Shown here: one piece after another, positions 1 through 36,800 of the stretch | Numbering within the stretch: position 1 is the first letter of the stretch | Layout: each line of letters opens with the position of its first letter | Origin: Verrucomicrobiota bacterium | Lineage (GTDB): Bacteria > Verrucomicrobiota > Verrucomicrobiia > Opitutales > UBA953 | NCBI GenBank assembly: GCA_030831965.1 | Contig: JAURJZ010000005.1 | Span: 1-36,906 of the forward strand | DNA: 36,906 nt | Direction of reading: 5' to 3' | The notes under the pieces: model-generated | The model's input: only the letters and a program-made list of their open reading frames with translations | Database searches by the model: none | What the model was told of the DNA's origin: nothing | Translations under genes and position numbers: made by a program

Positions 1-366
<366 letters not shown>

Positions 367-31298: not shown

Positions 31299-32993
31299 AT
31301 GGATCGCCGCACCGCCTGGTTCCTCCTCGTCGCCGTCTCGCTGAGCATGGCCGCGGGCTTCCTCTACCCCGCCTACAGCGTGCTGCAGGAGGCCTTCCTC
31401 GACCTGCGGACCGGCAAGCCGACCCTCGAGTACCTCGGGATGATCCTCGCCGACCCGGTTTACCGGGAAGGGCTGGCCAACTCGCTCCTGCTCGGGCTCT
31501 GCACGACCGTCCTCGCCCTCGGCATCGCCCTGCCGCTCGCGGTCATCAACCACCGGCACGACTTCCCGCTGCGCCGCGCCCTCGCCCTCGCCGTGCTGGC
31601 CCCGATGATCCTGCCACCCTTCGTCGGGGCGGTCGGGATCAAGCACATCCTGGGCGTGGAAGGCTCGCTCAACGCCGTCCTCGGCTCGCTCGGGCTCGTC
31701 CCCGACTCGGGCCCGGTAGACTGGCTCGCGCGCGGGCGCTTCGCCGGCATCGCGCTGATGAACGCCCTCTGCCTCTACCCCATCCTCTACCTCAACCTCT
31801 CGGCCTCGCTCGCCCAGCTCGACCCGGCGTTGGAGCAGGCGGCGGAGAACCTCGGGTGCCGCCCATGGCGCCGGTTCGCGCGCATCACCCTGCCCCTCAT
31901 CCTGCCGGGCATGTTCGCCGGCGGCTCCCTGGTCTTCATCTGGGCCTTCACCGACCTCGGCGTGCCCCTCGTCTTCGACTACACGCGGGTGGCGTCGGTG
32001 CAGATCCTGGACGGGATCAAGGGGCTCGACCGGAATCCCCTGCCGTACGCGCTGACCGCGGTCGTGCTCATCGTCGCGGCCACCGTGTTCCTGCTCTCGA
32101 AGCTCCTCTTCGGCGGACGCCGGGCGGGCAGCGCGCCCCGGCCGCGGATGCAGGCCAATCCGGCGCGCCTCGGCGGCCTCGGGGGCTGGGCCTGCAGCGC
32201 CTTCTTCCTCGGCATCACGGCGGTGGCGACGCTGCCGCATCTCGGCGTGCTCCTGCTGTCGTTCGCCTCCCATTGGCACGGCACCGCCCTGCCCGCCGAG
32301 CTGACCCTGGCCCATTGGCAGGAGGCCCTGGGCAGCGCCCTCGTCGTGCCCTCCATCCAGAACAGCCTGGCCTACGCGGGCGCGGCCACCGTCCTCGCCC
32401 TGGTGGTGGGCTTGGCCTCGGCCTGGGTGGTGGTGAGGTCGGACCTCCGCGCCCGGCACGTGCTCGACACCCTGACGATGATGCCGCTGGCGGTGCCCGG
32501 GCTCGTCCTGGCCTTCGGTTACCTGGCGCTGTCGCAGGAGGGCAAGCCCTTCCACGGGCTGATCGGCGAGAACGGCAGCCCCTTCCTCCTCCTCGCCCTG
32601 GCCTATGCGATGAGGCGCCTTCCCTATGTGATGCGCTCCTCGGTGGCCGGGCTCCAGCAGAGCGACCCGGTGCTTGAGCAGGCCGCGAGGTCGCTCGGCG
32701 CCGGCGCGTGGTCGACCTTCCGGCGGATCTCGCTGCCCCTGCTCGCCGCGCACCTCGCGGCGGGCTGCATCCTCGCCTTCGCCTTCGCCATGCTGGAGGT
32801 CAGCGACAGCCTCATCCTCGCCCAGCAGGCCGAGCACTATCCCATCACCAAGGCGACCTTCGCCCTGCTGACGACGCTCGGCAACGGGACGGAGCTGGCG
32901 GCCGCGCTGGGCGTGTGGTCGATGGTCTTCCTCTCCACCGCGCTCATCGGGGCCGCCCTCCTCGGCGGCAAACGCGGCGGGCTAGGGGGATGA
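31299..32993 (+). CDS. ABC transporter permease, two fused domains (FbpB-like)
   Basis: Forms the membrane channel of the importer. The 564-aa protein is a tandem fusion of two binding-protein-dependent permease domains with about 12 membrane helices. Each half has an EAA loop that contacts the ATPase: EQAAENLGCRPWRRFARITL (about 179-198) and EQAARSLGAGAWSTFRRISL (about 456-475). Fused permeases of this type are typical of Fe3+ (FbpB/SfuB) and 2-aminoethylphosphonate importers. ATG 31299 follows the binding-protein stop by 6 bp. It ends the ABC operon; a weak AGGCTA/TAGCCT hairpin (32997-33018) follows. The gap to 33248 is described under the REP element. Confidence 0.92.
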   Translation: MDRRTAWFLLVAVSLSMAAGFLYPAYSVLQEAFLDLRTGKPTLEYLGMILADPVYREGLANSLLLGLCTTVLALGIALPLAVINHRHDFPLRRALALAVLAPMILPPFVGAVGIKHILGVEGSLNAVLGSLGLVPDSGPVDWLARGRFAGIALMNALCLYPILYLNLSASLAQLDPALEQAAENLGCRPWRRFARITLPLILPGMFAGGSLVFIWAFTDLGVPLVFDYTRVASVQILDGIKGLDRNPLPYALTAVVLIVAATVFLLSKLLFGGRRAGSAPRPRMQANPARLGGLGGWACSAFFLGITAVATLPHLGVLLLSFASHWHGTALPAELTLAHWQEALGSALVVPSIQNSLAYAGAATVLALVVGLASAWVVVRSDLRARHVLDTLTMMPLAVPGLVLAFGYLALSQEGKPFHGLIGENGSPFLLLALAYAMRRLPYVMRSSVAGLQQSDPVLEQAARSLGAGAWSTFRRISLPLLAAHLAAGCILAFAFAMLEVSDSLILAQQAEHYPITKATFALLTTLGNGTELAAALGVWSMVFLSTALIGAALLGGKRGGLGG

Positions 32994-33080
32994 AAAAGGC
33001 TATAGAGCCCACTAGCCTCTGGCTGAATAGCGGAATAGCGGCATAGCTGATTGGCGGAGGGCAATGGGCAGTGGGAATGG

Positions 33081-33148
33081 GTAGGGAAGCTTGTCCCAAG
33101 CCTCCGGGAGGCGGTGGAGATGGAGGCCTGGGGACAGGCCTCCCTACC
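33081..33148. repeat. REP/BIME palindrome, left copy
   Basis: The left arm GTAGGGAAGCTTGTCCC... (33081-33105) is the imperfect inverse of the right arm GGAGGCCTGGGGACAGG... (33122-33147). Each arm also folds by itself, e.g. AGGCCTG-GGGA-CAGGCCT. The same sequence flanks the RAYT gene on the other side. Within the 255-bp gap after the permease, 33019-33080 and 33149-33248 show no gene. Confidence 0.85.
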
Positions 33149-33248
33149 AGGCTGAGGATGAGGGATTGGGCTTAGGCAAAAGGGCCCAGCGGCTGGATGA
33201 GGAACCGGGGAGCGGGCAATGCGAGCGCCATCGGGCTAATAGGCTGAT

Positions 33249-33683
33249 ATGGGAAACCGAAAATGGTTGCGACATGACATACCGAGCTGGGTGGAGGCGG
33301 ATGACTATTGGTTCATCACATTCTGCTGCGTCGAGCGGGGGCGAAACTCATTAGCCACAGGGCCCGCGCACGAGGCGATCAGGGAAAGCCTGCTCACCTA
33401 TCAAGGCCAAGGCCGGCTAAGGGTACTCGAGGCGGTGACGATGCCCGACCACCTGCATCTCGTAGCGCAATTCAACCTTGCGCAGGGAATGCGCGGAACC
33501 GTCTCAAACCTGAAGCGTTACCTCTCGCGCACGCAGGGTATCCGCTGGCAAGAGGGGTTCTTCGACCATCGGATTCGATCCGATAAGCTTCTGCGCGAGA
33601 CGGTTGATTACGCGCGCATGAATCCGGTCAGGGCGGGGTTGGCGAAGCGGCCCGAGGATTGGCCGTATCGGTGGTCACGGTAG
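33249..33683 (+). CDS. REP-associated tyrosine transposase (RAYT, IS200-like Y1 fold)
   Basis: Single-strand DNA nuclease/transposase that moves or maintains REP palindromes. The 144-aa protein is the usual size. It has the HUH motif in TMPDHLHLVAQF (His68, His70) and the catalytic Tyr121 in ETVDYARMNPVRAGL, a RAYT hallmark. The N-terminal YWFITFCCVER is also family-typical. REP palindromes lie 100 bp upstream and immediately downstream. The stop codon TAG (33681-33683) is part of the downstream REP sequence. All catalytic residues are intact, so it may be active. The less GC-biased codon use compared with neighbours fits a mobile origin. Start ATG 33249 has no clear Shine-Dalgarno. Confidence 0.9.
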   Translation: MGNRKWLRHDIPSWVEADDYWFITFCCVERGRNSLATGPAHEAIRESLLTYQGQGRLRVLEAVTMPDHLHLVAQFNLAQGMRGTVSNLKRYLSRTQGIRWQEGFFDHRIRSDKLLRETVDYARMNPVRAGLAKRPEDWPYRWSR

Positions 33684-33745
33684 GGAGGCTTGTCCCAAGC
33701 CTCCGGGATATGGCGGAGATGGAGGCCTGGACAGGCCTCCCTACC
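33680..33745. repeat. REP/BIME palindrome, right copy
   Basis: GTAGGGAGGCTTGTCCCAAG... (33680-33704) and GGAGGCCTGGACAGGCC... (33721-33744) form a long imperfect inverted repeat. The sub-hairpins AGGCTTG-TCC-CAAGCCT and GGAGGCCTG-GA-CAGGCCTCC are perfect. The element begins one base before the RAYT stop codon. Confidence 0.9.
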
Positions 33746-33784
33746 CAGGCAGGTCTCGGGGGCGCGGGGGCAAGGGAGATGAGC

Positions 33785-33810
33785 GGAGGCCTGGGACAGG
33801 CCTCCCTACC
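33785..33810. repeat. REP half-element, third copy
   Basis: A single arm, GGAGGCCTGGGACAGG followed by CCTCCCTACC, matches the right arms of the two complete elements. It forms the GGCCTG/CAGGCC hairpin. The remaining bases up to 33882 hold no recognisable gene. Confidence 0.85.
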
Positions 33811-33882
33811 CGAGGCAGGATGGGGATGAGCGTCGCTGAGCCACGCAAGGGGAGGCCACGGACGTAGCCGCGGCCCTACCCC

Positions 33883-36800
33883 TTAGGGCTTGCGGCGGCG
33901 GCGGATGGCGGCGGCGGCAAGGGCGAGGCCGCCGAGGAGGAGGCCGTAGGTCGAGGGCTCGGGGATGGCCGAGTAGCTGAGGACAAGGTTGTTATTGTCG
34001 AGGGTGACGCTGAACCGGCTGGCGTCGATGGGCGTGACGCCGTCGGCGGCGAGGAAGGACTTGCCGGTGGCGTTGGTCTCGATGGTGAAGAGGTCGGACA
34101 ATGTCCTTCCACCAAGGTCGATGTTCCCGGCGACGCTGAACAGGATGAGGTCGAAGTCGACCTCGGGGAGGAAGTCCTCGGCCACGACATTGGAGCTGTT
34201 GGCGTCGATCGAGACCAGGCGGATGATGTAGCGCTGGGTGTCGCTGAGGTTCGCGAGGATCAGGTCGCCGATGACGTCGGTGGTGTCGTAGTCGGTCCCG
34301 GCGGCGGCGGGGTTGGCGATGGAGCCGACGCGGATGGCCTCGACCTCATAGATGGCGCCGCCGGCCAAGGTGACATTGCCGGCGACCTGGACGCTCCCGG
34401 GCGAATTGCCGGGGGCGAGAACCGAGCCGGACTCCTGGCTGAGATCGCCGACGATGATGGCGTTGCCGCCAAGACGCCCGCCTTGGCCGATGACCACCGC
34501 GCTGCCGCTGTTGATGGCGCCGACGGTGCCGTTGGCGACGAGGGCGCTGCGCAGCGTGAGCTGGCCGCCGATGAGGTTGAGGCCGGTGATGGAGCCGCCG
34601 TTGAGGGTGATCGCGTTGGTGATGACCTCGCTGAGCGAGATGGAGTTGCCGGTCGCCACGTTGAGCGCGGCGGTCGAGGTCATGTTGGTCCCGGTGATTG
34701 AGACGTTGGTGCCGAGGACGTTGACCGTGCCGGCGTAATTGGCGCCGAGGATGGCGGCGCCGGAGCGGAAGTGGGTGGGCGTGGAGCAGACCTGGCCGCC
34801 GGAACCGAACTGGGCGGTGGCGCCGTCGTTGACGTAGAGGCCGAAGCCGAGGTCGCCGAGGCCGGAGAAGCTCTGGGTGCCGCCGGTGAGGGTCAGGATC
34901 CCCGTGTAGGTGGCGAGGCCGCTCAGGGTGGCGCCGTTGGAGGAGATGTTGAGGGATAGGCCGCCGAGATTGGCGGACTGCCCGGAGGCGAGGAGGACGC
35001 CGCCGCCGATGCCGGAGAGCCCGGCGAGCTGCGAGGTGACGTCGCCGGAGCCGGTCGGGGAGACCGAGCCGGTCCAGCTGGAGGCGTTGAGGAAGGAGCC
35101 CGAGACGAAGGTGATGATGTTCGTCGGGTTCAGGCTGTTCAGGTCGAGGGTGCCCCCGTCAAGGGTGAGACCGGCCGCGCCGAAGGTGCCGAGATTGACG
35201 AAGGCGAGGGTGCCGGACTGGATGACGAGCTCGGCGGCGGAGGTGAGGGAGCCGGTGCCGGTCACGGAGCCGCCGTTGAGGACGATGGTGTTGCCGACAG
35301 CCTGGCCGTTGATGTCGAGCGTCCCGCCGGTGAGCGTGACGGTCGAGGTGCCGAGGGCGGCGGCTGAGCCCAGCTCGAGGGTGCCCGCGCTGACCGAGGT
35401 GGCTCCCGAGAAGGTGTTGCTGCCGGTGAGGCGGACCGTGCCGGCGCCGACCTTCTCGAAGCCGGCGGCACCTGAGATGACACCGCTGAGGACGACGGTG
35501 GAGCCGGCGGCGGAGGTGAGGATGGCCTTGGAGCCGAGGGACACGGCGCCGGAGAAGATGGCCCCGGCGTTCTCGGCCTCGATGCCGATGGTCGCGCCGA
35601 CCCCGGCGGGCAGGTTCATGGTGTGGCTACCGAGATTGGAAACGGTGTTCTGAGGCAGGGTGTCCCACTCGGTGGTGAGGGTGGCAAAGGCGGAGGCGCC
35701 GGTGCCCGAGGGATTGACGCTGACACCGGTGAGCACGGAGGCCTTTCGGACAAGCGTGCGCTCAGCGGTCTCGTAGCCGGAGCCAAGGGTGCCCCAGATG
35801 GAGCCCGGGTCGTTGCCAATCACGCCGAAGATGTCGATCCGGGCACCGGCGGAAGTCTCGAGCGCGATGGCGTCGTCGCCGTTGTAGAACATGAGATCCC
35901 CGGCGCTGTAGGTGGTGAGGCCCGCGGGAGTGACGGCGGCGCCGGAATTTGCGAGGACCATGGTCTCCCCGGCGCCCAGAGTTGACTTATAACTGCTGAG
36001 GTTGACCAGGGTGGTCGAATTAGTGGGGGTCGCGGAACCGTTGGCATACAGGCGCATGCGGTACTGGCTGAGGTCCAGGGTGTCGCCGGTGCCGTTGAAA
36101 AGCTCGATGTATTTGTTGTTGTTGGAACCCTCGATGTACTCGGAGATGATGAAGCCGCCGGTCACGGACGGGCGGACATTGATGGAGTTTCCTATGGTGG
36201 CACCGAGGCCGGCCAGGAGCGAGGCCCCGTCCTTCACCGTGACGGCGCCGGCGCCGAGGGCGCTGTCATTGGAGACGAGAACCGAACCCTCGTTGACGAC
36301 AGTGCCGCCGGTGTGGGTCGAGGCGGCGCCGAGGGTGAGCCGGCCGGCGCCGGACTTGGCCAGGGCCAGGGTGCCGCCGCCCGTGCCGTCGGCAAGCGAG
36401 GCGCCGAGCGTCGCGGCCGAGGCGAGGTTCAGGGTGAGGGTCGAGTTGGCGGAGCCGCCGTTCTCGACCGTGCCGGAGCCGGCAAGCGAGGTGAGGGTGG
36501 CGGACTTGCCGTTGAGCTGGATTTTGGCGGAGGCGGTGGCCGACTCGCCGAAGGAGACGGTGGCGCTACCAAAGCCGCCGGCGCCGCCCAGGCGAAGGGT
36601 GCCGTTGTTGACGGTGACGGCGCCGACGGAGAGGGGGCCGTTGACGGTCAGGGTGCCGGTGCCGGCCTTGACGAGGTCGCCGTTGCTGACTGGTCCGCCA
36701 AAGGACGCGCCCGAGTCGGCCACGGTGACGGTGCGCGAGGCGCCACCGAGGTCGATGGGGCCGCCGAGATTGAGCGCTCCGGTGGAAGCGGCCGTGCCGA

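Follow-up and report, generated by a model that had tools for sequence, protein, structure and literature searches.

We describe a locus in a Verrucomicrobiota genome that is very probably a REPtron, in which a single-copy, vertically kept HuH/Tyr transposase of the RAYT type is accompanied by REPs of its own, which form two inverted pairs and a single copy, and is proposed to know them by a fixed foot and a loop. The anatomy of the locus, its family membership, the association of REPs with RAYTs, and the agreement of loops with the RAYT tree are all directly observed.

Organization of the locus

The window, which is the whole stretch of 36,906 nucleotides that was analysed, is contig 91 of a 1.85-Mb host assembly that is 98% complete and contains one RAYT. 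Its features are listed in Table 1. The contig starts within a 16S rRNA gene (1-366, minus strand, 3' end cut off), and the assembly therefore breaks at an rRNA operon.

Table 1. Features of the RAYT locus in the window, and related sites at other loci.
Feature	Position	Strand	Description
ABC-transporter permease gene	31299-32993		PF00528; precedes the RAYT locus
REP 1	33081-33105	+	Left arm of upstream REPIN; GTAG and 9-bp stem with one A.C mismatch, loop TCC
REP 2	33122-33147	-	Right arm of upstream REPIN; 9-bp stem, loop TCCC
RAYT (TnpA-REP) gene	33249-33683	+	144 aa, ORF intact
RAYT motif residues			HuH H68/H70; catalytic Y121; GTAG contact W100, Q101, D106, H107, R110
REP 3	33680-33704	+	Left arm of downstream REPIN; GTAG foot holds the RAYT stop TAG
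REP 4	33721-33744	-	Right arm of downstream REPIN; 8-bp stem
REP 5	33785-33809	-	Single perfect REP
REP, other family	33854-33879	-	Stem CCGCGG, loop CTACG; just 3' of the PEP-CTERM gene
Autotransporter-repeat (PATR)/PEP-CTERM gene	33883-36723	-	Convergent; large protein with lamin-tail domain and PEP-CTERM sorting motif
Stop-in-REP loci	Window 33681-33683; L058, L059, L060, L064, L069-L074, L119-L136		RAYT stop within or directly against a REP
Near-repetitive text of the GCACAGGGGCACGGGAG type	L010:760-1000; L007:1370-1500; window 33010-33080		Intergenic
Other PVC RAYTs	L144, L145, L148-L150, L153-L157, L159, L161, L165, L167, L168, L170, L172		Mostly GTAGC

The REPs of the locus follow one plan, namely GTAG, a stem of 8-9 bp (mostly 9 bp) that starts with GG, and a loop of 2-4 nt; as a single strand the REP is GTAGGGAGGCTTGTCCCAAGCCTCC, with the loop TCC. 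Two inverted pairs (REPINs; 33081-33147 and 33680-33744) bracket the RAYT gene and are joined by a single REP, and all of these are still near-identical. The 16-mer GGACAGGCCTCCCTAC, with up to three mismatches, occurs five times, always inside the locus, a count that was reached in none of 100 shuffles (expected 0.49). Both pairs fold as DNA (z -3.9 and -6.2), and the perfect single hairpins have z between -3.8 and -5.3. An earlier sequence-only reading, in which each arm folds singly, placed the elements to within a base or two; its "half element" at 33785-33810 is really one complete REP, and the sixth REP, of a different family, was absent from its list. The TAG that ends the RAYT gene is the TAG within the GTAG foot of REP 3.

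Near-repetitive intergenic text such as GCACAGGGGCACGGGAG recurs beside REPs of differing stems.

The RAYT protein and its relatives

Pfam assigns the protein encoded at 33249-33683 to Y1_Tnp, and it scores 87.9 bits against the NCBIfam equivalog for REP-associated tyrosine transposases (NF047646), whose cut-off is 80. In the PDB it is matched best, in sequence as well as in fold, by 4er8, the E. coli TnpA-REP in complex with a REP hairpin. The AlphaFold model has a pLDDT of 90 and superimposes on 4er8, the best solved match, with a TM score of 0.77 and an rmsd of 2.9. When the two sequences are aligned, H68 and H70 form the HuH motif, Y121 corresponds to the catalytic Y115, and N125 corresponds to N119. 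Residues W100, Q101, D106, H107 and R110 align with W94, Q95, E100, H101 and R104, which are the residues of the E. coli protein that touch GTAG (PMC6006769); the change from E to D at the E100 position has been reported for subclasses 2.5 and 2.7 (PMC6006769). Each of these residues, catalytic and GTAG-touching alike, is invariant or at least 90% conserved across 30 relatives. The identification as a RAYT with REPs and REPINs is thus correct, given the NF047646 score, the 4er8 fold and the GTAG hairpins on both sides, and the gene is intact as had been claimed, since its reading frame is unbroken and all catalytic residues are kept. The nearest named matches are from Verrucomicrobia, allied MAGs, and Geminisphaera colitermitum, in agreement with the Verrucomicrobial setting proposed earlier.

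The E. coli rayT (b0228; 4er8) resembles the window RAYT in being a single-copy HuH-Tyr protein of the same fold, with the same GTAG-contact residues except that E100 is D here, and with inverted REP pairs on both sides. However, the REPs in the window are perfect short palindromes of 24-26 nt without the E. coli bulge, and the protein is shorter, without the C-terminal tail. A short perfect stem (8-9 bp, against 8 bp in theirs), a loop of about 3 nt and D at the E100 position are features in common with the Group 3 / subclass 2.5 TnpA-REP proteins of Stenotrophomonas and Marinomonas (PMC8266576, PMC6006769), a likeness in REP type and D106; the loop of these REPs is critical in vitro (PMC8266576). 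They come from another phylum, and a further difference is the fixed GG with which the stem in the window starts.

Closer in phylogeny are the GTAG repeats of Opitutus terrae (Di Nocera 2013, PMC3733652), which, as described, are GTAG-tagged hairpins from the same phylum, occurring as singles and dimers with several families per genome. Because these were described in 2013, both the system and its presence in the phylum were already known. Geminisphaera colitermitum TAV2 (L169) has a RAYT that is 42% identical, flanked by GTAGGGAGGCCTCTCCGAGGCCTCC, in which only the closing pair of the stem is different; its ORF differs in continuing, in the frame that was read, for 76 aa beyond the match. In PVC RAYTs that are more distant, the stem is mostly preceded by GTAGC, with one unpaired C, and the geometry differs from that of the GTAGGG type.

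REPs elsewhere in the host genome

The sequence-only reading had presented the locus as a REP-spreading system with palindromes to be counted across the genome. The exact palindromes and stems are essentially absent from the rest of the 1.85-Mb genome: the stem is present in five copies at the one locus and in one decayed copy at C84:1318-1391, which has a spacer in common with the window pairs and is the only dispersed copy seen in an intergenic position. As a refutation of dispersal this search gave a first impression only, as a search for GTAGGG hairpins with any stem revealed a wider set. A covariance model, R1, in which GTAGGG and the pairing are fixed and the stem sequence is free, identified 28 sites, of which the window locus accounts for five plus the one from the other family, while about 20 lie elsewhere with other stems. 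About ten of these dispersed REPs (about half) have the loop TCC, as in the window RAYT's own REPs, and about six have the loop TAC, for which no RAYT is detectable in the host genome. Copying has therefore been slight in this host, and one loop class is without a RAYT. The claim of spreading is thus a weak one for this genome: it fails for the exact stem, and what stands of it is the scatter of GTAGGG hairpins with other stems, about half of them with the loop TCC.

The family of the REP at 33854-33879 is also found at C52:1383, C61:75077 and C51:3808. This class, with the loop CTACG, has no matching RAYT in the 98%-complete genome, and seems to have been orphaned by the loss of its RAYT.

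Such thin dispersal raises the question of whether the locus is a decaying relic, in which the RAYT no longer acts and the hairpins have at most a role as terminators or stabilisers of mRNA 3' ends. The host has 16 REPs at E<=0.1, compared to about 100 in its relatives; the stem of REP 1, in the upstream pair, contains a mismatch, and in several dispersed copies the foot is worn to GCAG. Against this, the ORF is intact with every catalytic residue in place, and both REPINs, like the single REP, have kept nearly the same sequence. We consider it unlikely, though by no means negligible, that the locus is such a relic.

Mobility of the RAYT gene

RAYTs that occur in the same genome are at most 56% identical, while in most clades the DNA flanking a given RAYT lineage is collinear between genomes. 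Each RAYT lineage thus has a single copy at a fixed place, without IS-like mobility, and the description of the locus as domesticated was well founded. This fits the accepted picture of domesticated single-copy RAYTs with slow copying of REPINs (PMC8049555). In a genome of the same genus (G002), what comes after the orthologous 3' end of the permease gene (86% identical as DNA) is a different gene, and both RAYT and REP are missing; lineages therefore differ in whether they have the block, through its gain, its loss or a rearrangement.

This junction is among the observations that favour an autonomous insertion sequence like IS200/IS605, moving as a unit with the REPs as its ends; the inverted hairpins at both ends, together with the stop codon in an end hairpin, also recall IS termini. 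The G002 difference could also be loss or rearrangement, however, and an element of this kind is hard to reconcile with one copy in the genome, with within-genome RAYTs that are never close copies, with flanks that are collinear in most genomes of a clade, or with a score of 20.5 bits for the IS200 model, below its cut-off of 55. We therefore regard an insertion sequence as highly improbable.

Association of REPs with RAYTs across the family

A match to the window RAYT was found in 36 of the 79 genomes of the family. The 31 genomes with a strong match were treated as carriers and the other 48 as the comparison group. The median number of R1 REPs per genome is 102 in carriers and 8 in the others (p 1e-8), or 103.5 and 2 respectively among genomes at least 90% complete. 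These counts saturate near 100, with 99 candidates scored per genome, and differences among the carriers are therefore meaningless. One genus of eight genomes (g4) has neither RAYT nor REP. Relatives lacking the RAYT thus do not have equal numbers of REPs overall, which would have spoken against the reading given earlier; tens of REPs are nonetheless present in several genomes in which no RAYT was detected, but not all of these genomes are complete, and a search made with a single sequence could miss a divergent RAYT.

A census of all 9-bp hairpins with a loop of 3-4 nt and any foot, at 30 RAYT loci, gave 168 with GTAG, which was present at 30 of 30 loci, and 24 with the next real tetramer; a 312-kb sample of the host genome showed no such excess of GTAG. 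The count of covariation on the REP alignment was excluded as proof, because the sequences had been chosen as hairpins. That the hairpins are chance features, or simple intrinsic terminators beside a gene, has next to no probability: the genome is GC-rich, with many short inverted repeats, and in the host sample GTAG plus hairpin (minimum 8 bp) is no more frequent than average feet, a signal emerging only when GG/CC ends are required, but this idea is contradicted by the dominance of GTAG in the census, by five near-identical copies at one locus, by GTAGGG..CC hairpins, of which the sampled genomes have 11-58 each where control feet give 0-4, and by the genus that lacks both RAYT and REPs.

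Proposed recognition of REPs by foot and loop

REPs within 350 bases of 48 RAYTs were recorded, and a tree of the RAYTs was built. In 198 of the 202 REPs, GTAG is followed by GG. On this tree the most frequent loop of each RAYT undergoes 12 changes, where eleven loop states require at least ten changes, and shuffled labels gave a mean of 33.7 and a minimum of 28; the tree alone cannot separate loop from stem, because both are inherited within a clade. Within loci, the difference per site is 0.33 for the stem and 0.11 for the loop, and at 24 of 30 loci the stem is the more variable of the two. Five relatives of the window RAYT (L056, L061, L057, L018 and L066) have the TCC loop in common, and their stems are as unlike as ACGCCT, CGGGCT and CTGGGT. 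In two genomes with several RAYTs (G028 and G052), the dispersed REPs are enriched for the loops of the resident RAYTs (p 0.002 each, in a post hoc comparison of these two genomes). The commonest dispersed loop in G052 is CGC, for which no RAYT was detected there.

In 35 of the 48 loci, the downstream REP starts between -14 and +2 relative to the RAYT stop, and in about three quarters the stop lies inside or against the first downstream REP. The part of the REP that supplies it differs by clade, being the TAG of the foot, a TGA in the stem or a TAG in the loop. This is partly expected, since the domain ends so near the REP. Earlier work has already described REPs that lie at, or within, the ends of RAYTs (Nunvar 2010; Di Nocera 2013, PMC3733652), and GTAG was noted to supply TAG stops in GTAG repeats (Di Nocera 2013, PMC3733652); as a novelty, the observation was dropped as partly known.

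Taken at the level of sequence, these comparisons suggest that RAYTs recognise the fixed foot of the hairpin and its loop, and not the sequence of the stem. For REPs that are perfect palindromes, cleavage depends on the loop, single loop bases are recognised, and effects of the stem are modest (PMC8266576); the lineage-specific loops and variable stems found here agree with such recognition. We propose that DNA made single-stranded by replication or recombination would let the RAYT bind a REP as a folded hairpin, with the GTAG foot acting as a guide and the unpaired loop, TCC here, as an identity mark, and that the stem sequence would matter little beyond pairing and its GG start. Y121 would then nick beside the hairpin and rejoin the DNA, such that a REP or REPIN is occasionally copied elsewhere, while the RAYT gene itself would not hop. 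Binding, cleavage and copying, which we infer, would have led to only slight spread in this host, with close copies round the gene and TCC-loop relatives thinly scattered.

The window locus by itself is an ordinary REPtron; what is new is a large natural series of RAYTs that points to recognition by foot plus loop. We see even chances that, across the family, the loop together with the fixed GTAGGG foot is an identity code for each RAYT lineage, with a nearly free stem, that orthogonal pairs of RAYT and loop coexist within a genome, and that orphan loops mark lost RAYTs. The discrimination by RAYTs of their own REPs has been tested in vitro for few pairs, three of them in PMC8266576. The 48 RAYTs collected, whose REPs combine a constant foot and free stems with at least eleven classes of loop, make the idea of loop recognition testable by loop swaps.
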